A DNA stretch of 41,892 nucleotides, from positions 1 to 41,892 of the forward strand of contig JAFTUS010000185.1 of the NCBI GenBank assembly GCA_017466125.1, in the 5' to 3' direction. The stretch comes from Lentisphaeria bacterium (GTDB lineage Bacteria > Verrucomicrobiota > Lentisphaeria > Victivallales > Victivallaceae). This document shows positions 29,893-41,653 of the stretch, in pieces. Each line of letters opens with the position of its first letter. The stretch's first letter is position 1. A program made the position numbers and the translations under genes. Under the pieces are notes generated by a model, which saw nothing but the letters and a program-made list of their open reading frames with translations, was not told the DNA's origin and did no database searches.

Positions 29893-29955
29893 TCCAAATG
29901 GCAAAGAATGTTTGCAGGCTTTCACTTGATTTTACAAATAAAGAAAGGTATAAAA

Positions 29956-30720
29956 ATGAGTCGTAAAGTTATTATCGCCGGAAACTGGAAAATGAACAAG
30001 ACCGCCGCCGAAGGCAAAGCCCTGGTCGAAGCCCTGAAACCCCTCGTGGCTGATGTGACCGATGCCGACGTGGTCGTCTGCCCCCCGTTCACCACGATCT
30101 CCGCTGTTGTCGAAGCCGCCAAAGGCTCCAACATCAAAGTCGGTGCCCAGAACATCCATTGGGCGGAAAGCGGTGCTTTCACCGGTGAAATCTCTGCCGC
30201 CATGCTCAAAGAAACCGGCATTGATTACGTCATCATCGGTCACAGCGAACGCCGTCAGTATTTCGGCGAAACCGATGAAACCGTCAACAAACGCATCAAA
30301 GCCGCTCTCGCCGCTGACCTCATTCCGATCGTCTGCATCGGCGAACTGCTGGAAGAACGCGAAGGCGGCAAGACGGAAGCCGTTCTCGATACTCAGCTCA
30401 AAGGCGGTCTGGCTGACCTGACCGGCGACGATATGAAGAAGATCGCTCTCGCCTACGAACCCGTCTGGGCGATCGGTACCGGCAAAACTGCCACCCCCGA
30501 AATGGCTGAAGAGACCCACGCTTTCATCCGCAAGACTCTGAACGATATGTTCGGCAAAGAGATCGGCGAAGGCGTCCGTATCCAGTACGGCGGCAGCATG
30601 AAATCTGAAAATGCCCAACAGTTGGTTGCCCAGCCCAACATCGACGGCGGTCTGATCGGCGGCGCAGCCCTCAAGGCTGACAGCTTCTCCGCTCTGGTGC
30701 ATAACGCATTGACCGAGTGA
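29956..30720 (+). CDS. tpiA: Triosephosphate isomerase
   Basis: This 254-residue TIM-barrel enzyme interconverts dihydroxyacetone phosphate and glyceraldehyde-3-phosphate in glycolysis. Catalytic residues are Asn10 and Lys12 (GNWKMNK), His96 (IIGHSERRQYF) and Glu168 (ALAYEPVWAIGTGKTA). The phosphate loop appears as IQYGGSMKSENA and GLIGGAALK. The start is the ATG at 29956, with AAAGG 8 bases before it, rather than an upstream in-frame start at 29875 that lies ahead of the promoter's -10 box. Codon use is strongly biased toward C-ending codons, as in highly expressed genes. A strong terminator follows. Confidence 0.97.
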   Translation: MSRKVIIAGNWKMNKTAAEGKALVEALKPLVADVTDADVVVCPPFTTISAVVEAAKGSNIKVGAQNIHWAESGAFTGEISAAMLKETGIDYVIIGHSERRQYFGETDETVNKRIKAALAADLIPIVCIGELLEEREGGKTEAVLDTQLKGGLADLTGDDMKKIALAYEPVWAIGTGKTATPEMAEETHAFIRKTLNDMFGKEIGEGVRIQYGGSMKSENAQQLVAQPNIDGGLIGGAALKADSFSALVHNALTE

Positions 30721-30726
30721 TCCGTT

Positions 30727-30777
30727 CCGGAACAGGCGCAGTCCTCCCTGTGAGGAGTCTGCGCCGTTTCCGGTTTT
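30727..30777 (+). terminator. Rho-independent terminator after tpiA
   Basis: CCGGAAC then GGCGCAG (30727-30741) pair with CTGCGCC then GTTTCCGG (30759-30773), with an inner CCTC/GAGG pairing, followed by TTTT. It lies 6 bases past the tpiA stop. Some read-through into secG is possible. Confidence 0.8.
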
Positions 30778-30816
30778 ACTGAATTCAACAAAATCAACAG
30801 AAAAAGAGGCGCTTAT

Positions 30817-31119
30817 ATGTTGGTATTTCTCTATGCGCTGGTCGTGATAATCTCCGTTTTGCTGATCGGAATTATCCTGATACAGCCCTCCAAGTCCGGA
30901 GGAATGGGAGCCGCTTTCGGCGGTGTCGGTGAATCCGTTTTCGGTGCGCAGGCCGGCAGTCATCTCACCAAGGCGACTGTGGTCATGACAGCCGTTTTTC
31001 TCGCTCTCTCTCTGATTTTGGCCGCTCTGATCGGTCATGGTTGGGACAACGAAGAGTCCAAAGGCGTGGACGCTCTGGTCGAAGCCAGCGCAAAAACCGC
31101 TCCGGCTGCACAGAAGTAA
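30817..31119 (+). CDS. secG: Preprotein translocase subunit SecG
   Basis: This 100-residue protein belongs to the SecYEG protein-export channel. The first helix, MLVFLYALVVIISVLLIGIILIQPSKSGGMGAAFGG, carries the hallmark Q-x-[SG]-K-x-[GS]-G-M-G-x-x-F-G segment. The second helix is VVMTAVFLALSLILAALIG (about 54-73), and an Ala/Lys tail follows. Size and layout match SecG exactly. The tpiA-secG order is seen in many bacteria. The secG gene lies 96 bases after tpiA beyond a terminator and 19 bases before the next gene, so it may be read together with the pilus-like cluster. Confidence 0.93.
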   Translation: MLVFLYALVVIISVLLIGIILIQPSKSGGMGAAFGGVGESVFGAQAGSHLTKATVVMTAVFLALSLILAALIGHGWDNEESKGVDALVEASAKTAPAAQK

Positions 31120-31138: not shown

Positions 31139-31813
31139 ATGAAGGCAGGTAAATTACTGAAAATCGCTATGCTCGGGGCTGTACTCATGCTCCCCTGTCT
31201 CCTTTTTGCCGCGCCCGTTTCCCAGACAAAAGAAAAAGGCCGGCTGTTCCAGCGGGTCGGTATCCGGATCGAAATCGCAGCCAAATCGCCGGTTCCAAGC
31301 ACCTTGAACGGCAAGATCCGCACGTTCCGTCTGACAAATTCATGGCTGCTGATTTTTATTGATTATACCCCGCAGGGAAAAAATCAGTGGCTTGATGATG
31401 TCGAACTGGATATGGAAGTCCTGATCCCGGACGATGCGAAGAAAGCCAAAAGCAGTTACGTGGTTTTCAGCGGAAAAATCCCTTTCCGGTTCGTCTTGAT
31501 GGATGGAAGGACAAGAACTGCCGTAATGGCGATCCCGCCCCACTTTCTGGAGCGTTATCTGCCGCGGATGCGCAAACTTACTGCCGCTGCTGTCAATATA
31601 AGAGCCGTATTCAGAGACAGCAAAGGCAGAGAACTCGGGATCGGATATTATCCCTCCCGCAGTGAAAAAGATTCAAAAGAATTTTTTGAAAAAATATTGA
31701 AAAAACCAACCACTTATACCGTGGAAGACAGTGTACTGCCCAGAGAGGAAACTCCGTGGCAGTTTATGAATTATGACCAGAGCGATCTGGTTCGGACCAG
31801 GCAGAATAAATAG
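31139..31813 (+). CDS. Exported protein, first gene of the pilus-like cluster (Amuc_1102-position)
   Basis: This 224-residue protein has a signal peptide, MKAGKLLKIAMLGAVLMLPCLLFA, with likely cleavage before AP, so it is periplasmic or surface-bound. The mature part is beta-rich (VGIRIEIAAK, RTFRLTNSWLLIFIDYTP, LDDVELDMEVLI, SYVVFSGKIPFRFVLMDG) and suits an immunoglobulin-like fold. The C-terminus is charged. I recognise no catalytic motif. It holds the place of Akkermansia Amuc_1102 relative to the PilM-like gene, and the call rests on that synteny. The ATG at 31139 has GGAAAGG 7 bases upstream. It probably forms one operon with the next genes (31-base gap). Confidence 0.7.
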   Translation: MKAGKLLKIAMLGAVLMLPCLLFAAPVSQTKEKGRLFQRVGIRIEIAAKSPVPSTLNGKIRTFRLTNSWLLIFIDYTPQGKNQWLDDVELDMEVLIPDDAKKAKSSYVVFSGKIPFRFVLMDGRTRTAVMAIPPHFLERYLPRMRKLTAAAVNIRAVFRDSKGRELGIGYYPSRSEKDSKEFFEKILKKPTTYTVEDSVLPREETPWQFMNYDQSDLVRTRQNK

Positions 31814-31844
31814 AAATATTATAACATAAGAAAAAAGGTGACTC

Positions 31845-33725
31845 ATGGCAGCGAAAGAAACAAAAGTGCTGGCGATCGATATCGGCAGTGACAGTTTGAA
31901 GATTGCTGAATTTGATTATCCGGCAGGCGGCGGAATCGTCCTGAACGACTTTGCATTCCGCAGATTCGATGGCGAGGACGATGAGCAGGGGATCGCTTTT
32001 TACCAACTCTACCATGAGATCCTTAAAGAGAAGAAATTTACAGCAACTCAGGTAACACTGACCATTTCCGGTCAGGCCTCCTTCTCCCGTCTCAGCAAAC
32101 TCCCGCCGCTTCTGGGAAACAAAGGGGCGATCCAGCGCATCGTTGAATACGAAGCACGGCAGACCGTTCCGTATGCCATGAACGAAGTCGTCTGGGACTA
32201 TCAGCTCATCAGCCACTCGTGGGAGGAAAAACACGAGGAGGAACAGGAAGACGGCACTGTCGTTGAAGTCGCCGATGCGCAGGAAGAGTTTGAAGCCCTC
32301 TTCGTTGCAATCAAAAATGACCTCGTGACCCGTTATACCAACATCATCGAAGATTCCGGCAAAGAGATCGTTTCCGTTGAAATCGCCCCCGTTGCTCTCT
32401 ATAACGCCGCCAAAGGCGGTCTGCAGTGCGGCGAAGATGAGTGCGTACTGCTTCTGAATATCGGCGGAAAAGGGTCGAACCTAATGATCGCCGACCACAA
32501 CCGCGTCTTTATGCGCAGTATCCCGATCGCCGGAGATGCCATTACCAATCAGGTCGCCAAAGAGTACGCCATCAGTTTCAATGAAGCCGAAGAACTGAAA
32601 ATGCGTCACGGTTTTGTCGCCCTCGGCGGTGCTTACGAAGAGCCGGAATCCATCGTGGCGGCAACGATTTCCAAAATCGCCCGCAACGTGATGACCCGTC
32701 TGCACGGCGAAGTCAGCCGTTCGATCAACGCATGGCGCGCCCAGCACGGCGGCAATGTCCCCACCCGGGTACTGCTCTCCGGCGGCGGCTCTGTCATGAC
32801 CTACATCACAGACTTCTTCCAGGAAAAACTCCGGGTCCCCGTGGATTACCTCAATACGTTCGGTTTGATCACGTTCTCAAACCGGGTGGACAAAAATGCC
32901 CTTCAGGAAGTCGCCCCCATGTTTCAGGAGTTGATCGGTATGAGTCTGCATCAGATTGCAGAGTGTCCCATCGCTATTTCGCTGATCCCCCGCAGTATTC
33001 TCAAACAGCGGGAACTGGACTCCAAAAAGCCCTACTTCTACATCGCAGCGGCGTTTCTGGTCATCTGTCTGTCGGTGTTCAGTTTCGGTGTGAACCGCCG
33101 TTTCATCTTCGACAAGGAACAGGTCGATAAAGTTCAGGCAAGCGTCGATGCCACCAACCGTCAGGCGGCAACGATCCGGCAGTTGAACGACCAGTTCAAC
33201 GCCGCCAAAGGACGCTATGACGAAATGGTCAACATCCTCAATGAACGTTCAAAATGGAACGATGTCATAATGCACCTGCAATCGATCATGCCTGATACCG
33301 TGTGGCTGACTGCCGTGGAAGGCGTCGGGCCGGTCGCGGCTCCGCAGACGACAGCAACCGACGGTTTCGGCGGTTTCGGCGGCGGCCCCGCTGAACCGGC
33401 GGGCGGCTTCGGCGGCTTCGGCGGGTTCGACGGCGGGGCAGCTCCCGCCAACGTGGTTCAGGTCGTAAAGAAGGAATTCAAGCCCATCGACTCTATCAAT
33501 ATGACGGAAATCACCGGTTTGCGACTGATCGGGTACTGGCTGAAAGTCGGCTCGGAACAGGCGCCGCTGCAGAGGTTTATCGACAGCATCGGCAAATCAG
33601 AATTCTTTGAACTTCCGCAGGGCGATCAGGAGTGGAAGCTGGTTGACAACCAGACCTCTCACGAATATTCCAACTTGGGGTCTTTCGAATTGACCATTAA
33701 ACTCAAAACCCCGCTTAAAAAGTGA
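31845..33725 (+). CDS. PilM-PilN fusion: actin-like ATPase joined to a membrane-anchored domain
   Basis: This is a 626-residue protein. Residues 1 to about 385 are PilM/FtsA-like: VLAIDIGSDSLKIAEF (phosphate 1), VEYEARQTVPYAMNEVVWDYQ, LLLNIGGKGSNLMIAD (phosphate 2) and RVLLSGGGSVM (adenosine). A transmembrane helix lies at about 396-415 (YFYIAAAFLVICLSVFSF). A coiled coil (DKEQVDKVQASVDATNRQAA) and a PilN-like periplasmic part follow, with a Gly/Phe-rich insert at about 507-535. In type IV pili PilM and PilN are separate proteins; PilM caps PilN's tail in the cytoplasm. Akkermansia Amuc_1101 sits at this place. The ATG has an AAGGTGA ribosome site. Confidence 0.88.
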   Translation: MAAKETKVLAIDIGSDSLKIAEFDYPAGGGIVLNDFAFRRFDGEDDEQGIAFYQLYHEILKEKKFTATQVTLTISGQASFSRLSKLPPLLGNKGAIQRIVEYEARQTVPYAMNEVVWDYQLISHSWEEKHEEEQEDGTVVEVADAQEEFEALFVAIKNDLVTRYTNIIEDSGKEIVSVEIAPVALYNAAKGGLQCGEDECVLLLNIGGKGSNLMIADHNRVFMRSIPIAGDAITNQVAKEYAISFNEAEELKMRHGFVALGGAYEEPESIVAATISKIARNVMTRLHGEVSRSINAWRAQHGGNVPTRVLLSGGGSVMTYITDFFQEKLRVPVDYLNTFGLITFSNRVDKNALQEVAPMFQELIGMSLHQIAECPIAISLIPRSILKQRELDSKKPYFYIAAAFLVICLSVFSFGVNRRFIFDKEQVDKVQASVDATNRQAATIRQLNDQFNAAKGRYDEMVNILNERSKWNDVIMHLQSIMPDTVWLTAVEGVGPVAAPQTTATDGFGGFGGGPAEPAGGFGGFGGFDGGAAPANVVQVVKKEFKPIDSINMTEITGLRLIGYWLKVGSEQAPLQRFIDSIGKSEFFELPQGDQEWKLVDNQTSHEYSNLGSFELTIKLKTPLKK

Positions 33726-33738
33726 TAGGAGGCGAAAA

Positions 33739-35073
33739 GTGAACCGCTTTGTCAAGAAAAATATAATGTTGGTACTGGTGTTTTGTGTGGCATTGGTGCT
33801 GGTCGCTTTCCTGCTGGGTTTGGCAGCTGTGCAGCACGCCCGCATGGCAAAATACATCAAAAAGACCGAAGAACTCCGCGATCAAATCAAGACACTGCAC
33901 CAGCAGAAACCGGTGCCGGTCAAAGAGAATGAACGGCCGCTCAAAGTCAATACAGAACTTTATAACAAGGCAGCCGATGAAATCGAAATCTATTTCGGTC
34001 AGCCCTTCAAACCGGCAGTGGAGGCCTTTATTGCTGAACTCAACAAGAAGCGTCTGCCCCAGTTCAAAGAACCGTGGACACTTGAACGGCTGCGCGAAGC
34101 CTTCCGTGACGGCGTTCCGGATAAAGACGGCAACCAGAAAGGCTGGAAGGATATTCCGGCTGACAGTTTCCCGGAACAGCAGATGTATTTTGAAAACTTC
34201 CGTCTCCACAATTTCAGCAACTGGAATGCCGCCATCCATGTGTTCAGGGAAAATCTGGAAAAGTTGACCACCGAACCGCTTAACAGTGATACCACAGTCA
34301 ATGAGATCCTGCTGGCTCAGTTGGGCGTTCCCCGTGTCATGGGGTTCAATCCGTTGCGCATGAACCGTTTCCTTGATGATTACCGGTTGAAACTGCTGGA
34401 TCTGAATAATAAACTGGGCGTGGAAGCTGCGGCTTCCGATTTTACATTTCCCGGTGAAAAAGATAAAAGACTCTTCACCAAAGAACAGTTCCCGCTCATC
34501 CCGTTCCACATGGACGTGATCGGTGACCTCTTCAGTAAAATCTGCAAAACTGAACTGCGCCAGTTGGAAAACATCAAGAAACGCTCCTTTGAAGGCACTC
34601 AGGAAGGAAGTTTCATGCGGTACGATTATTCGCTCGAAGTCATCGGCACAATCGGCGAAGTCCGCAAACTGGTCAAGCTGATCGAAGGTGCTTATGCTGA
34701 ACGGCGGCTCTATGTGGTGCGCAGTGTCTTCCTCTATCAGTTGAAAGACGAAGCCGCAGAATACATTTCTCCTGAAGATGTCGAGGATGATAAGAACGCC
34801 AACAACGATACGCCTTCTCCCGTTGAAACGACCGGCCGCCGCGGCCTCCGCGGTGCCCGGGCAAAACAGCAGGAAAATACGCAGGAACCCACGATGTCAG
34901 AGACACTCAAAAAGCGTCTGGAAGCCAATCGTCTCGCTGAACTTGAACGGGAAAAAAGTCTTAAACCCACTGAACGGAGCAGTTACGGCCGTCTGCTGGT
35001 CGGCGAAGAAAAAGAGTGCCGTGCAGTGATCGATGTCAGTTATATCGTAAAACCCATTCCGGCGATTCAATAA
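33739..35073 (+). CDS. Inner-membrane pilus-like protein (Amuc_1100-position, PilO-like)
   Basis: This 444-residue protein has a short cytoplasmic start, one transmembrane helix (about 10-32), a coiled coil (AKYIKKTEELRDQIKTLHQQK) and a large periplasmic part. That part includes an alpha/beta segment near 270-340 (SLEVIGTIGEVRKLVKLIEGAYAERRLYVVRSVFLYQL) which resembles the ferredoxin-like fold of PilO/PilN. Order, size and layout match Akkermansia Amuc_1100, the pilus-associated outer-surface protein; identity by sequence cannot be measured here. A linker at about 355-400 is rich in Arg, Gly and Gln. The GTG start at 33739 has AGGAGG 6 bases upstream. It lies 13 bases after the PilM-like gene. 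Confidence 0.75.
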   Translation: MNRFVKKNIMLVLVFCVALVLVAFLLGLAAVQHARMAKYIKKTEELRDQIKTLHQQKPVPVKENERPLKVNTELYNKAADEIEIYFGQPFKPAVEAFIAELNKKRLPQFKEPWTLERLREAFRDGVPDKDGNQKGWKDIPADSFPEQQMYFENFRLHNFSNWNAAIHVFRENLEKLTTEPLNSDTTVNEILLAQLGVPRVMGFNPLRMNRFLDDYRLKLLDLNNKLGVEAAASDFTFPGEKDKRLFTKEQFPLIPFHMDVIGDLFSKICKTELRQLENIKKRSFEGTQEGSFMRYDYSLEVIGTIGEVRKLVKLIEGAYAERRLYVVRSVFLYQLKDEAAEYISPEDVEDDKNANNDTPSPVETTGRRGLRGARAKQQENTQEPTMSETLKKRLEANRLAELEREKSLKPTERSSYGRLLVGEEKECRAVIDVSYIVKPIPAIQ

Positions 35074-35086
35074 GCGGAGGTCTATT

Positions 35087-36352
35087 GTGGAATTTATCAA
35101 AAAACATTATGAAAAGTTGGTGTTGATCGTTTTGCTGTTTGCATTCATCGGCTCTATGTTTTACGTGTTGAACATTATCCGTGAAACTGCCGAAAACAAA
35201 GGTCTGGCGATCTCCACCGGTAAAGCAGACCAAATTGCCCTTAATGGTAAAGATAAAATTTTCAACAGCGATTTTCTGGTGAAAGACAATTTGGGCAAGT
35301 GGAACCAGAGTGCGCAGCGGAATAGTAACTTTGCCAATATGACCTCCGATCTGGTGATCCCGCTGGAACTTTCATTCTGTCCGTTTGAAGACTGCGGAAA
35401 TATGATCCCTTTCGGTTATATGAGCGGCAAGAACTGTCCCTTCTGCGGAAAACTTCTGCCCAAACCGCCGAAACGTAGAGTTTCCCGTTTCCGCAGAACC
35501 GAAGAGGACCTTGACGGTGACGGTATTCCGAACCGGGAAGAGGAAAATCAGAAACTTGATCCTCAAGATCCGTACGATGCCCTCTATGACCGTGACCGTG
35601 ACGGTTTCTCCAACGTCTATGAGTATATGAATGGTTACAAGATGCACCTTGCCAAGAGCCATCCGCCCATGTGGCATCGTCTGGTGCTGAAAGAGTTGGG
35701 CCGTCAGAAACTCCCCGTTATCTTCAAAGCGGTGAATACCAATAATTCCCCCGATCAGAAGAGATGGGATATTCAGATCAACCACATGAATCCGCGCGAC
35801 ATGACCGTTTTGAGAACGACTGACGTGACCTCCCTCGGCGGACTGCTCACCATCGATAACCGCGAATATCAAATCGCCCGCATCGAACTGCGGCAGACCA
35901 AACTGCCCACCAAAGAGGGCGAAAGTCAGCGCATGAAAGATGAATCCATTATCTATCTGGAAGAGACCGGCGGCAAAGACCGGATCTCCATGCAGATCGG
36001 CAAGGACGTATTCTCCTCGGACGTCAAGGCTGTGTTCATTGATCACGGCATGATCGACAAGGAAGGCAAACCGGCCCAGTTCATTGTCGGTTTGAAGCAG
36101 AAACTTACCGTAGGAAACCGGCGGAATGCCCGGGAGACTTATCTGCTGCACACGATCGACACCAAGCGGAACATGGCTCTGCTGGTCGATGCCAAGACGG
36201 AGAAAATTCCGGAAAAAGTTGAAGAACAGATGTGGGTAACGCAAAAAGGACATATCCCCGAAGATATGCGTATCAGACCTGTTCAGAAAATTACAGAGAC
36301 TGTCGAGGGCGAAAATATGCCGGAAAATATACCCGGCGGCAGACGCCGTTGA
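35087..36352 (+). CDS. Membrane-anchored zinc-ribbon and calcium-motif protein (Amuc_1099-position)
   Basis: This is a 421-residue protein. An N-terminal helix (about 10-30, LVLIVLLFAFIGSMFYVL) anchors it. Near residues 96-122, CPFEDCG and CPFCGK form a zinc-ribbon-like four-Cys site, unusual for a periplasmic protein. DLDGDGIPNREEE and DRDRDGFSNVYEY follow; these are two Asp-rich calcium-binding loops like thrombospondin type 3 repeats. The rest is beta-rich. Lipids, DNA or protein binding cannot be told. It holds the place of Amuc_1099 between the PilO-like gene and the secretin. The GTG at 35087 has GGAGG 7 bases upstream and lies 13 bases after the previous gene. Confidence 0.72.
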   Translation: MEFIKKHYEKLVLIVLLFAFIGSMFYVLNIIRETAENKGLAISTGKADQIALNGKDKIFNSDFLVKDNLGKWNQSAQRNSNFANMTSDLVIPLELSFCPFEDCGNMIPFGYMSGKNCPFCGKLLPKPPKRRVSRFRRTEEDLDGDGIPNREEENQKLDPQDPYDALYDRDRDGFSNVYEYMNGYKMHLAKSHPPMWHRLVLKELGRQKLPVIFKAVNTNNSPDQKRWDIQINHMNPRDMTVLRTTDVTSLGGLLTIDNREYQIARIELRQTKLPTKEGESQRMKDESIIYLEETGGKDRISMQIGKDVFSSDVKAVFIDHGMIDKEGKPAQFIVGLKQKLTVGNRRNARETYLLHTIDTKRNMALLVDAKTEKIPEKVEEQMWVTQKGHIPEDMRIRPVQKITETVEGENMPENIPGGRRR

Positions 36353-36538
36353 TTTTCAGGGAGAGAAAAGCGGAAAAAAACGGTTTTTTATTGAAAAATT
36401 TAAATATTTTAACAAGAAAACTGTCAATGACGGCAAGTTTTACTTGCTATTTGTGGAAATTGGGTGTAAGTTATCGTATTGACTGTAAAATTGTGATTTT
36501 TTTATGAATAATATAAATTCAATAAGGGATATTAGAGA
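36353..36538. other. Intergenic gap before the first secretin, possible promoter
   Basis: This 186-base AT-rich gap is the only sizeable break in the cluster. AAAAAACGGTTTTTT near 36377-36391 is a weak hairpin. TTGTGA (36491-36496), 17 bases and TAAATT (36514-36519) make a fair promoter about 20 bases before the secretin ATG. The two secretins may therefore be expressed separately from the upstream genes. Confidence 0.4.
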
Positions 36539-39094
36539 ATGAGTTTGATGAACCGCCGATTTGCTGTATGCGGCATGGCTGTTTTTGCAGTTGTCGCGAT
36601 CGCCGCTGACATCCAAGGGGCTCCCGTCGGGGATTTGGTCTTCGTCGATGAAGAACAATATCAGAAAAGTGCCGACAAAGAAATTGCCGCCCGCAATGAG
36701 GTGTTTGCAAGACAGGATGCCGCCATCAAAAAAGCAAAAGGACTGGCAGCCAAAGAGAAATTTGCCGAAAGTGTCTCTCTGTACGATTCCGTAAAATTTG
36801 AACTTGAACGGATGATAAAAGAGTCCTCATCCTCCATCGCCCGCAAAAGATTGCAGCAGTTTGAAGAAGAGATTTCAGAGATCCGCAGCCGCTGGGCAAA
36901 ACAGGTGTTGAAAAAAGCAAACGATGCCGTCGCCAACGGACTTTATAATAAGGCTATTGTGGAAGCATCGCAGATCCAGCATATCGATCGCCGCTTCTCT
37001 GCCGAAGCAAAAAAACTCATTGATGACGCATCCAAAAAACTGAAAGCCTCTGAATTCAAAAAAAGCACCTCCCTCGAAACGATCGATCCGAAATATCAGG
37101 AGCGGCGTGACAATGTGGAACGTCTGCTCAAACAGGCCAAAACCTATTTCCTGAATAAGAAATATACAGAAGCACGTAATTGCATCGAAGAAGCATATTT
37201 GCTCGACCCCACCAACTATAATGCGATGGAAATGATGCAGATGATCTATGCCAAACTGTATACTTACGGTATCCGTCGTCACAAGGTCGATGCTTCCGGG
37301 ATTGCGGCAGAAGCGCAATGGAGTTGGGTCGAACCGGTCTTCCCCATCCACCAGAACGAAACAAACGACTCCGGGGAACGCATCGATCCCGGTACGGACT
37401 CTGTGCTTGCGCACATGGAGCGCATCATCTTCCCGACGTTCTCATTCAAAGACATTCCGATCACCAAATTGATCGACCAGCTCAACCGCCGCAACAAAGA
37501 CTTTGACCCCGATCCGGCAAAAGAGGGCGTGAATATCGCCTTCAAGAGCAGTGCCGGAACGAAAATCCCGACCGTCAGTATCGACCTGACCAATATCCCG
37601 CTGAGTGAGATCATCCGTTATGTCTGTGCCGATACCGGCTTGAAATACCGTGTCGAATCCGATGGCGTCGTGATCGGTCCCCAGGTCGACCCGATGCAGG
37701 AACGCCATTTCCCCGTGCGCCGCACGCTGATCGAAGGCATTGCCGCATCCGTTTCCGGCGGTGATGCTGCCGGCGGCGAAGGCGAAGGCGGTGAAGGCGG
37801 CCCCGGCCCGGAGGCAGGTCCTGCACCCGCTCCCCGTGCTGCTGACGAAGGCGGTGGCGGCGGTGACACTGAGGGCGAATTGGGCAAACTCGGTGAAGGT
37901 GCCGACACCAAGGAGTTTTTCAGCAACGTGGTACACTCAAAGGTCGCACCCGTTTCCAGTGCCTCTCTGCAGAATTATTTCTCCGCCCGCGGTATTGAGT
38001 TCAAGGAAGGCTCCTCCATCCTTTACGATCATGGCCGCAGCCGTCTGACCGTGCGCAACACGATCGACAATCTGCGGAAAATGGAAAAACTGATTTTACA
38101 GCTTGACGGCATCAAAACCCCCATGATCCTGGTCGAGATCCGCTGCATCGAAGTTTCTGAAAACGACTTTCAGGAACTCGGCTTTGACTGGTCGATCAAC
38201 TCCGACAACCGCAGGATCGGCGGTCATTCCGGCAGCAAACGCGAATGGGCTTTGGATCAGGTCGATGATAAAAGCATGAATCAGCTGATCCGTCCTCTGG
38301 AACAGGCGATCGCCAATGTCGCAAGCGGAACTCTCATCAATCAACTTGATATCTTCCCCGCCCTTTTCGGAACTTCCTATCCGTTCGGCAAGGATTTCAA
38401 CTTCAACCTCTCTCTGACGGTGAACGCCATCTGTCAGAATACCCGTACGGAGACGCTCTCCGCTCCCAAACTGCTGACCGAAAGCGGCTCCAAGGATGCC
38501 GCCATGATCAAGCTGGTCAAAACCCACTACTTCCCCGATGAATGGGAAGAGATCGAAGTAGATGAAGAGAACGGCGGCGTCGATATTACTCCGCCCCGCC
38601 CGACCTTCGATGAACCCACGGACGTCGGTATTATTTTCAGCGTCCGCGCCAGAGCGAACCCGGATAACCGCACGATCAACTTGCAGCTTGATCCGCAGAT
38701 CGTCAACTATATCGGCAATGACTCGTACGACATCACGATTTACGGTAATGAAATCTCCGCCGACGGCCCCAATGCCTACAAAGAGACCAAGCGCGATTTC
38801 CATTATCAGATCTGGATGCCCGTCTTTACAGAACGTGCTTTGAGTGTGAAAGTCAACGTTGTTGACGGCTGCACACTGGTTCTGGGCGGTATCACTCAAA
38901 ACCAGATGTCCACCCGCGTGGATAAGTGGCCCCTGCTCGGCGATTTGCCGTTTATCGGCCGTTTCTTCCAGTCCCGTGCGGAGGTCGGCACCAGAAACAA
39001 TATGATGATGTTCGTTACTGCCCGTCTGATCAACACCAGGGGCGTCCCCGTGGAACAGAATGTCGAAAAAGGCATTCCCGATTTCTTGCGTTAA
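36539..39094 (+). CDS. Secretin, outer-membrane pore of the pilus-like system (first copy)
   Basis: This is an 851-residue protein with a signal peptide (about 1-28, ending IQGAP). Residues about 40-240 form helical TPR-like repeats (KKAKGLAAKEKFAESVSLYDS, ARNCIEEAYLLDPTNYNAMEMMQ). Secretin N-type domains follow, interrupted at about 405-455 by a Gly/Glu/Pro/Ala linker. The C-terminal secretin core has LVEIRCIEVSENDFQELGFDW, ETLSAPKLLTESG, VNVVDGCTLVLGGITQNQ and LLGDLPFIGRFFQSR, the last two being secretin signatures. It matches Akkermansia Amuc_1098 in position. It should form the outer-membrane ring. The start is the ATG at 36539; an ATG nine bases later is possible. It ends 21 bases before a second secretin. 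Confidence 0.93.
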   Translation: MSLMNRRFAVCGMAVFAVVAIAADIQGAPVGDLVFVDEEQYQKSADKEIAARNEVFARQDAAIKKAKGLAAKEKFAESVSLYDSVKFELERMIKESSSSIARKRLQQFEEEISEIRSRWAKQVLKKANDAVANGLYNKAIVEASQIQHIDRRFSAEAKKLIDDASKKLKASEFKKSTSLETIDPKYQERRDNVERLLKQAKTYFLNKKYTEARNCIEEAYLLDPTNYNAMEMMQMIYAKLYTYGIRRHKVDASGIAAEAQWSWVEPVFPIHQNETNDSGERIDPGTDSVLAHMERIIFPTFSFKDIPITKLIDQLNRRNKDFDPDPAKEGVNIAFKSSAGTKIPTVSIDLTNIPLSEIIRYVCADTGLKYRVESDGVVIGPQVDPMQERHFPVRRTLIEGIAASVSGGDAAGGEGEGGEGGPGPEAGPAPAPRAADEGGGGGDTEGELGKLGEGADTKEFFSNVVHSKVAPVSSASLQNYFSARGIEFKEGSSILYDHGRSRLTVRNTIDNLRKMEKLILQLDGIKTPMILVEIRCIEVSENDFQELGFDWSINSDNRRIGGHSGSKREWALDQVDDKSMNQLIRPLEQAIANVASGTLINQLDIFPALFGTSYPFGKDFNFNLSLTVNAICQNTRTETLSAPKLLTESGSKDAAMIKLVKTHYFPDEWEEIEVDEENGGVDITPPRPTFDEPTDVGIIFSVRARANPDNRTINLQLDPQIVNYIGNDSYDITIYGNEISADGPNAYKETKRDFHYQIWMPVFTERALSVKVNVVDGCTLVLGGITQNQMSTRVDKWPLLGDLPFIGRFFQSRAEVGTRNNMMMFVTARLINTRGVPVEQNVEKGIPDFLR

Positions 39095-39115
39095 CCAAGC
39101 CGGAGGCTATAAAAT

Positions 39116-41653
39116 ATGATGAATATGAAACAAACATGGTTGCTCTCAGCGGTGCTTTGCGCCGGAGTCTTGTCTGCGGCTGAACCCGCCAAGAATGCAC
39201 CGAAAGTCGATATCCCTGACTCTGTACGCAACACGCTGAACAGAACCCAGATGGGATATCAGGAGTTGGAACGGGTCGCCAATGCTGCCGTTGCCGAAGG
39301 AAACAGACTCTTTCTGGAAAAAGAGTATCTCAAAGCCGTGGACCAGTATTTGAAAGCCGCGACTTCCTACCGTTCCTTTGCAAGTAAGAAGTTTGTACAG
39401 CAAACTCAGTATTGCCGTAATCAGATTTTGAAATGCTATACCGCACAGGCAGAAGCCGCCATCGAAACCGCCGAACAACGGGCAAGCGTCCGGGACTTTG
39501 AGGAAGCCATCAAGATTTGCCGGGAGGCAATCTCCTACTGCCCCGAATACAAAGAACGGCTCAACGCACGTATTGCGTTCTATGAAAAAAGATTGAACGC
39601 CGCCGCAAAACGGCAGGAGTTGTCGGAAGAACAACTTCTCCCCAACAAGAAAAATCAGGAGTATCAAATCCAACTTCTGCTCGAACAGGGCCGCAAATTT
39701 GTCTCTACCCGCCAGTATGCCAAGGCGATCGGCCGTTTTCAGGAAGTGCTGTTGATCGATCCGTTCAATGATACTGCATTGCAGAATATTGAGGCCGTTT
39801 ACAACCGCTTGGGCAAAAGCGGTGCAGAACGCTACAAAGATACACACCGCAAGATGATCGCTGAAGCGGAATGGGAATTCGCTCTGCCCTATCTGCCTGC
39901 TGTTGCCGCCTCCAACGCCGATAATATGGTCGCTCAGACTGTCGCCCCCGGCGGAGAAACAAAAGTCAAAAAGACCCAGCGGCAGCTCAGCGAACTGGAA
40001 CAGAAACTGAACAGCATTGTTCTCAAACACATCTATTTTGAAGAAGTTCCGCTCTCTTCTGCGATCAAGTATCTGCGGGATCAGAGTAAACTTTATTCCC
40101 CCGACCGTATCGGCGTGAATATCATCGTTCGCAAACCGACAGAAGCCGAACTCGCTGCGGAAAAGGCCGCCGCCGGTCAGGATGGTCAGGCGGCTCCTGA
40201 AAACCCCGCTCCCCAAAATCAAAATCCGGATGAAGAGTCCGACGAAGATGACGAAGAGGAGGACGAAGAGGAAAGTGAGGAAAATCAGGAACCGAAAGTC
40301 TCCATGATCCGCCGCAACGTGACATTGATGACTGCTTTACGCGACCTTTGCGAAAGTTTGGGCTGGCGTTCCCCGAAAATCGACCGCTACGCCGTTGTTC
40401 TCGCTCCGAAGAACGTGGCTCTCGAAGATATGGAACACCGCATTTTCCCCGTTGACCGCGATGCACTGGAACAGGCGGTTGCCGCCGAAGGTCCCATCGA
40501 CGGTCCGGACGGCTCCAAGAACCTCCGTTCTTTCTTCAGCAAACAGGGGGTCAAGTTCCCGCTGAAATCGACGATCGTTTACGATGAAAAGATCAGCCGC
40601 CTTATCGTTAATAACGTGAATGACGAACTTGATCGTATCGAACAGAAAATTCAGGAGATCGTGCAGATCCAAAATCCCCAGGTCCAGATTTTGGTCAAAT
40701 TTGTTGAAGTTGCCCAGAATGACCTGAAACAACTTGCTTTCAACTATAACCTTGCCATCAACAAGGACAACGCCGATGGCCGTATCCGGATGCAGGACAG
40801 CGGAAATTCGCTTCTGCGTTATTACAGTGCAGAAAACAAAGGTCCTGCGACTACGACCGTTGATGAATTCGGCAAAGATGCCCAGTTGACTTACAGTTTC
40901 AGCAACTCCAAAGGAACCTCCTTTATGGCAAGTCTCTTTGCGCTGAACTGGGCCGACAGTTCGGACGTGCTGTCCGCTCCCCGTGTGACAACGCTTCCCG
41001 GACAGACCGCAACGATCAAGATGTTGGAAAAACATTACTACCCGGATGAATGGGAAACCATTGATGCCCCGGAAACTCCTGAAATGCCGGAAGGCGATAC
41101 CTTTACCAAGGTCTGGTATGCAACCAAGGACCCTGATCCGCAGCCGACCTTCGATGAAATGGATGAACTGGGTATTTCATTCTCCATCACTCCCCGTGTT
41201 GACGGAGATCTGATCCGTTTGGACGTCTCTTTCCCGATCAAGACGTTTGACGGCTGGGATGTGTATGACCCCCGCGATCCTGAACCCAAACCGGCTCCCG
41301 ACCCGAACAACCCCGATGCGGATACCGACAGTGACGATGACGATGCTGAATACTTCAAAAAGCCCCGTTTCAACGTCCGTCAGATCACGACTTCTGCGCT
41401 CGTTGCTGATGGTGAAACCATCGTGCTGGGCGGTGTGACCATGGATACAACGGAACGTTTGCAGGATAAAATTCCGATCCTCGGTGATCTTCCGCTGATC
41501 GGCCGTCTTTTCCAGTCCAAGTACACCAAGGCGGAGAAGCGCAATCTGCTGATCTTTGTGACCTGTCGTCTGGTCAAGCCTGACGGTACGGCTTTCAACC
41601 CCTCCAATACCCGTACTCAGGGAACAGAGAGGATAAGCAACTTCTACCATTGA
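39116..41653 (+). CDS. Secretin, second tandem copy with acidic insert
   Basis: This 845-residue protein has the same plan as its neighbour: signal peptide (MKQTWLLSAVLCAGVLSAA), helical TPR-like repeats at about 45-250, N-type domains and the secretin core. Core marks are VQILVKFVEVAQNDLKQLAFNYN, VLSAPRVTTLPGQTATIKMLEKHYYPDEWE, LVADGETIVLGGVTMDT and ILGDLPLIGRLFQSKYTK. The first copy has a Gly-rich linker; this one has an acidic run at about 372-395 (EESDEDDEEEDEEESEE), and an Asp/Pro-rich insert near 720-745. Both copies carry HY[FY]PDEWE and PTFDE, so they are true paralogues. The ATG at 39116 has GGAGG 10 bases upstream. The copies may form mixed rings or serve separate machines. Confidence 0.92.
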   Translation: MMNMKQTWLLSAVLCAGVLSAAEPAKNAPKVDIPDSVRNTLNRTQMGYQELERVANAAVAEGNRLFLEKEYLKAVDQYLKAATSYRSFASKKFVQQTQYCRNQILKCYTAQAEAAIETAEQRASVRDFEEAIKICREAISYCPEYKERLNARIAFYEKRLNAAAKRQELSEEQLLPNKKNQEYQIQLLLEQGRKFVSTRQYAKAIGRFQEVLLIDPFNDTALQNIEAVYNRLGKSGAERYKDTHRKMIAEAEWEFALPYLPAVAASNADNMVAQTVAPGGETKVKKTQRQLSELEQKLNSIVLKHIYFEEVPLSSAIKYLRDQSKLYSPDRIGVNIIVRKPTEAELAAEKAAAGQDGQAAPENPAPQNQNPDEESDEDDEEEDEEESEENQEPKVSMIRRNVTLMTALRDLCESLGWRSPKIDRYAVVLAPKNVALEDMEHRIFPVDRDALEQAVAAEGPIDGPDGSKNLRSFFSKQGVKFPLKSTIVYDEKISRLIVNNVNDELDRIEQKIQEIVQIQNPQVQILVKFVEVAQNDLKQLAFNYNLAINKDNADGRIRMQDSGNSLLRYYSAENKGPATTTVDEFGKDAQLTYSFSNSKGTSFMASLFALNWADSSDVLSAPRVTTLPGQTATIKMLEKHYYPDEWETIDAPETPEMPEGDTFTKVWYATKDPDPQPTFDEMDELGISFSITPRVDGDLIRLDVSFPIKTFDGWDVYDPRDPEPKPAPDPNNPDADTDSDDDDAEYFKKPRFNVRQITTSALVADGETIVLGGVTMDTTERLQDKIPILGDLPLIGRLFQSKYTKAEKRNLLIFVTCRLVKPDGTAFNPSNTRTQGTERISNFYH

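Follow-up and report, generated by a model that had tools for sequence, protein, structure and literature searches.

The window analysed here comprises an entire 41,892-bp contig (G000:C173) of the 3.83-Mb genome of a Lentisphaeria bacterium, G000. Positions 31139 to 41653 hold six consecutive forward-strand ORFs, separated by gaps of 31, 13, 13, 186, and 21 nt, which follow the Akkermansia gene order Amuc_1102-1101-1100-1099-1098 and then add a second full-length secretin gene. The six-gene Akkermansia-type order with two tandem full-length secretins, as proposed in the initial annotation, is borne out by the ORFs themselves, by their domains, and by loci across the order Victivallales; in line with the same annotation, no pilin, motor ATPase, PilC, or prepilin peptidase gene adjoins the cluster. 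Immediately upstream lie tpiA and secG (29950..31119, +), which constitute genomic context outside the machine. They occupy this position in nearly all Victivallaceae-type loci, mostly <1 kb away, and their conservation within the family fits with long vertical inheritance. As the contig ends 239 bp past the second secretin gene, the downstream side could be judged from relatives alone; the closest named relatives belong to Victivallis, including V. vadensis DSM 14823 (L170), in which more than 2 kb follow the secretin genes without a third secretin.

The first gene of the cluster (31139..31813, +) encodes a secreted Amuc_1102-like (MUL2A-like) protein of 224 aa, bearing a signal peptide and assigned on its position and a conserved C-terminal TPW...YD motif. 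It is followed by an Amuc_1101-like PilM protein of 626 aa (31845..33725, +; PF11104, 89 bits), matched by NF045709 over residues 3 to 609 (418 bits vs. a cut-off of 650), with an actin-like PilM domain (residues 11 to 369), one transmembrane segment by hydropathy (residues 398 to 416), and a periplasmic C-terminal part that would be PilN-like. Two proteins with N-terminal transmembrane segments come next: (i) a periplasmic Amuc_1100-like protein of 444 aa (33739..35073, +, GTG start), the N-terminus of which is covered by NF038287 (27 bits vs. a cut-off of 180) and which is probably PilO-like, and (ii) an Amuc_1099-like protein of 421 aa (35087..36352, +, GTG start; NF042425, 42 bits, cut-off 50), a putative PilP-like linker. 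The latter displays two stretches that together suggest metal binding: one is Cys4 zinc-ribbon-like, and the other, DxDxDG, is calcium-binding-like and strongly conserved, with D168 and D172 invariant in the alignment with the Akkermansia orthologue. For the 1102- and 1100-like proteins, profiles built from sequences of the order, with Akkermansia excluded, were searched against the PDB and recovered the proposed relationships, with Amuc_1102 (7DSZ; E 0.0034, 177,635 sequences) as the top match of the former and the Amuc_1100 structures 6LAD and 6KNY (E about 0.01; 0.0095 for 6LAD) as the best matches of the latter. The 7DSZ and 6LAD matches would each be weak alone, yet they are top-ranked and agree with gene position.

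The cluster closes with two secretins, S1 (851 aa; 36539..39094, +) and S2 (845 aa; 39116..41653, +), which score 89 and 98 bits against PF00263 (cut-off 27.5 bits) and 299 and 263 bits against NF042912 (equivalog cut-off 750 bits), and are 25% identical over 750 positions. Each comprises a TPR region, an N0 domain, an N1-type domain, and a secretin β domain. In S1, N0 has a short loop and is joined to N1 by a long Gly-rich linker (about residues 401 to 473; 37739..37957, +) that is disordered in the model; in S2, N0 bears a long acidic loop missing in S1 (about residues 339 to 395; 40130..40300, +) and the linker is short. AlphaFold2 models of S2 and S1 (pLDDT of 75 and 72, respectively) contain all four domains in each protein; confidence is low for the S1 linker and for the loop of S2, as disorder would give. 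PilQ of V. cholerae (6w6m) is the best PDB fold match of both models, although uncertainty in how the domains are oriented (pTM of 0.38 and 0.37) keeps the TM-scores low, and PilQ is also the best match of both secretins by sequence.

The Akkermansia homology originally suggested is upheld by the NCBIfam models for Amuc_1098, Amuc_1099, Amuc_1100, and Amuc_1101, which match all five expected proteins; since every NCBIfam score given above lies below its equivalog cut-off, these proteins are homologues of the Akkermansia cluster, not NCBI equivalogs. Likeness to Amuc_1098-1102 (MUL2) resides in gene order, in a PilM with a C-terminal extension, in a TPR-headed secretin, and in the recognisability of all five families, whereas the Victivallis locus differs by having two secretins vs. 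one and longer 1100 and 1099 proteins. With the PilMNOPQ system of type IVa pili it shares PilM, a PilQ-like secretin, and the presence of PilB, PilC, PilT, and PilD in the genome, but here the motors are unlinked, the secretins number two, and a TPR head replaces AMIN; neither AMIN nor PilP Pfam domains were matched in the cluster, and the PilQ model TIGR02515 (cut-off 284) gives 100 and 121 bits for the two secretins. The GspD of type II secretion systems (T2SSs) has in common with them the secretin fold and N0/N1 architecture; however, S1 and S2 score 98 and 113 bits against TIGR02517 (cut-off 351), well below the cut-off, no linked gspE-F-G genes stand beside them, and the genome, which encodes many other secretins, has its own separate T2SS-like locus on C157. 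Proteins of the Akkermansia cluster have been reported to take part in mucin use and host signalling, with true pili not proven (PMC13174399, PMC5332112), and the MUL2 secretin has been reported as the most abundant outer-membrane protein of A. muciniphila (PMC4960237).

Matches to the 1101 model occur in 277 of the 289 genomes of the phylum, a count that includes general PilM/FtsA-like matches seen in control genomes too, and gene maps of 59 loci place the cluster in most families sampled. Within Victivallales (f1 to f7), all 25 loci that reach beyond the secretins contain two; seven class-mates outside the order contain one, and family f10 has three secretins in two genomes. Elsewhere, 21 contain one secretin and two (f33 and f43) contain two. 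Three tandem secretins, every one with a long N0 loop, were seen in the cluster in G238 and G252 (L099 and L100). Among named loci, 51 of 80 have two full-length copies. S1 and S2 lie side by side in all 25 order loci and in 62 pairs, mostly within about 70 nt of each other. Recurrence of the same layout in 25/25 order loci and 51 named loci puts it far from chance, and in all relatives examined the second secretin is tied to the cluster locus.

In a tree of 88 secretins, the order's S1 proteins group together, as do its S2 proteins, and the two groups are sisters. Support in a careful 58-secretin tree is 100/100 for S1 and 90/74 for S2, the S2 group appearing a little less certain. The two groups largely mirror one another's branching, and their branch lengths are similar, with neither copy looking degenerate. 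The simplest reading is that a single tandem duplication preceded the diversification of Victivallales, with both copies retained since. The extra secretins of f10, f33, and f43 each fall with their own lineage in the tree, indicating independent increases in secretin number in three further lineages. Gene conversion was considered and left no sign, with S1-S2 identities of 0.290 within a locus, 0.275 overall, and 0.28 to 0.29 between close relatives. In a mirror-tree analysis, the partial correlation of S1 and S2 distances (0.60 to 0.64) was the largest among cluster proteins; as the tandem PilB1-PilB2 control reached 0.65, this correlation is not specific and was set aside as evidence of S1-S2 partnership.

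Comparison of 62 distinct Victivallales S1-S2 pairs shows that ancestral features have been divided, the long N0 loop being retained by one copy and the long N0-N1 linker by its partner. The median N0 loop is 16 residues in S1 and 60 in S2; exactly one copy has a long loop in 61/62 pairs (the exception, L088, has none), and the linker is longer in S1 than in S2 in all 62. Both elements are long in the single-copy class-mates, and 27 of 28 single-copy secretins have a long N0 loop (37 aa or more). In five pairs, all from one clade that is recovered with either copy, the long loop lies on S1 instead, the gain in S1 coinciding with loss in S2; because the flanking N0 there is still S1-like by eye, this looks like gain and loss, not a domain swap. 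The f33 and f43 pairs each have one long copy (40 and 36) and one short (14 and 16), and in the three-copy f10 lineage all copies have long N0 loops. The view of the copies as specialised partners has good support; as loop and linker events amount to only a handful, they are strong evidence that the copies differ in role but no more than suggestive of a ring containing both.

Although the initial annotation could be read as describing a motor-less system, the motors are encoded elsewhere in the genome: C200 (L155) carries PilB1-PilB2-PilC, C142 a pair of PilT proteins, and C168 a double-PilT protein (exceeding the cut-off of TIGR01420); a single prepilin peptidase (PilD) is also present. Neighbouring PilB-type ATPases, two to a single PilC, were observed from Victivallales through to Akkermansia, which has a like PilB pair with PilC, plus a PilT-type pair, and one cluster secretin. 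Prepilin-type N-terminal motif (N_methyl) matches number about 140 in G000, none linked to the cluster or assignable as its pilin, and as few as 5 to 7 in relatives with the same cluster; a tie between the secretin pair and prepilin expansion was rejected, as relatives with only 6 or 7 N_methyl proteins keep two secretins. The small relatives G060, G029, G059, and G107 all have two cluster secretins and one PilC each (split across two contig ends in G107), and G059 and G107 have no secretins beyond the cluster pair; these are draft genomes of 94 to 97% completeness, for which gene absence is likely, not certain. With one PilC, and no other secretin in two relatives, one machine with two secretins is the simplest account, which disfavours the "two machines" alternative raised initially.

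Elsewhere in G000, shorter secretin-like genes (about 450 to 510 aa, then 535 to 750 aa) form five more tandem pairs, on C5, C47, C83, C88, and C11 (L162, L163, L164, L165, and L166). The C5 pair adjoins an apparent pst phosphate-transport operon, the PstS of which scores above the cut-off of its model, while an apparent ABC importer borders the pair on C47; the relatives G060, G087, and G137 have similar pairs. Importers may use these shorter pairs as paired channels in the outer membrane. On C12 (L161, 7431-12488), a single GspD-like secretin lies by genes that are, by eye, membrane-fusion-protein-like and ABC-permease-like.

We propose that the locus belongs to a single type IV pilus-like machine, of the same kind as Amuc_1098-1102 (MUL2), and supplies its trans-envelope part. 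The 1101-like, 1100-like, 1099-like, and secreted 1102-like proteins would form its inner-membrane and periplasmic platform. The outer-membrane channel would be built from the two products of one tandem duplication, between which ancestral features were divided, with S1 and S2 subunits joining one hetero-oligomeric ring docked on the single platform. Assembly and retraction of the pilus would be driven by PilB1, PilB2, PilC, PilT, and PilD from other loci. The pilus function, the platform roles, and the mixed ring are what we infer for this locus. That S1 and S2 are subfunctionalised partners in one such machine, most likely as a mixed ring, has in our judgement an even chance of being correct; that they share one ring is our best guess, coming close to even at best; and the fuller proposition of one ring of two paralogues (long N0 loops vs. 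long linkers) throughout Victivallales, independently approached by two or more further lineages of Verrucomicrobiota, falls somewhat short of even. The mixed ring is favoured by the presence of one long N0 loop per pair, maintained even in the clade with coupled gain and loss, and by the rise of the long/short pattern in f33 and f43 as well; it is weakened by the uniformly long f10 copies and by the L088 pair without a long loop. The proposal as a whole also draws on the PilQ matches of both full-length secretins, on their constant adjacency and largely mirrored branching, and on the small relatives with a single PilC or with no secretin beyond the pair.

Should S1 and S2 instead form separate homo-rings that dock alternately on the same platform, they would serve different fibres, substrates, or conditions. 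This is possible though distinctly less probable: each copy keeps a complete secretin architecture including N0, the periplasmic loop and linker differ consistently between copies, and two assembly ATPases share one PilC, but the constant adjacency of the copies in an operon-like array leaves little room for separate control, and the PilB pair does not track secretin duplication, Akkermansia having two PilB proteins with one cluster secretin. A division in which one copy is the pore, and the other an auxiliary ring, chaperone, or stabiliser no longer conducting the pilus, would agree with one copy being without the long N0 loop typical of single-copy secretins; retention of the β domain in both copies, together with their similar branch lengths and non-degenerate appearance, makes it quite improbable. 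The many other secretins of this genome and its separate T2SS-like locus could hint that S2 belongs to another secretion system and happens to be located here, with two separate machines involved. That reading is largely refuted and now very remote, given that the pair is the sole secretin complement of two relatives, that four relatives have a single PilC, and that S2 stays at the locus in the relatives examined and groups with S1 in the cluster-secretin tree. Compatible with any of these secretin readings, the cluster might be a secretion or attachment complex with borrowed pilus parts, consistent with the absence of a cluster-linked pilin, with the reported involvement of Akkermansia cluster proteins in mucin use and host signalling, and with the unproven state of true pili in reports on that cluster; the co-occurrence of PilB, PilC, PilT, and PilD, and the fact that the small genomes hold little else of pilus kind, render this unlikely.

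To our knowledge, secretin rings of known structure contain one chain type each, and our search of the open-access literature turned up no description of two secretins in this cluster. The locus is a genuine variant of the Akkermansia-type pilus cluster, with two secretins throughout the order, and the finding bears on the poorly understood MUL2 complex of Akkermansia. An order-wide pair with divided features and a single platform allows both mixed secretin rings and the role of the N0 loop to be tested, with the pair being carried by the type strain Victivallis vadensis DSM 14823.
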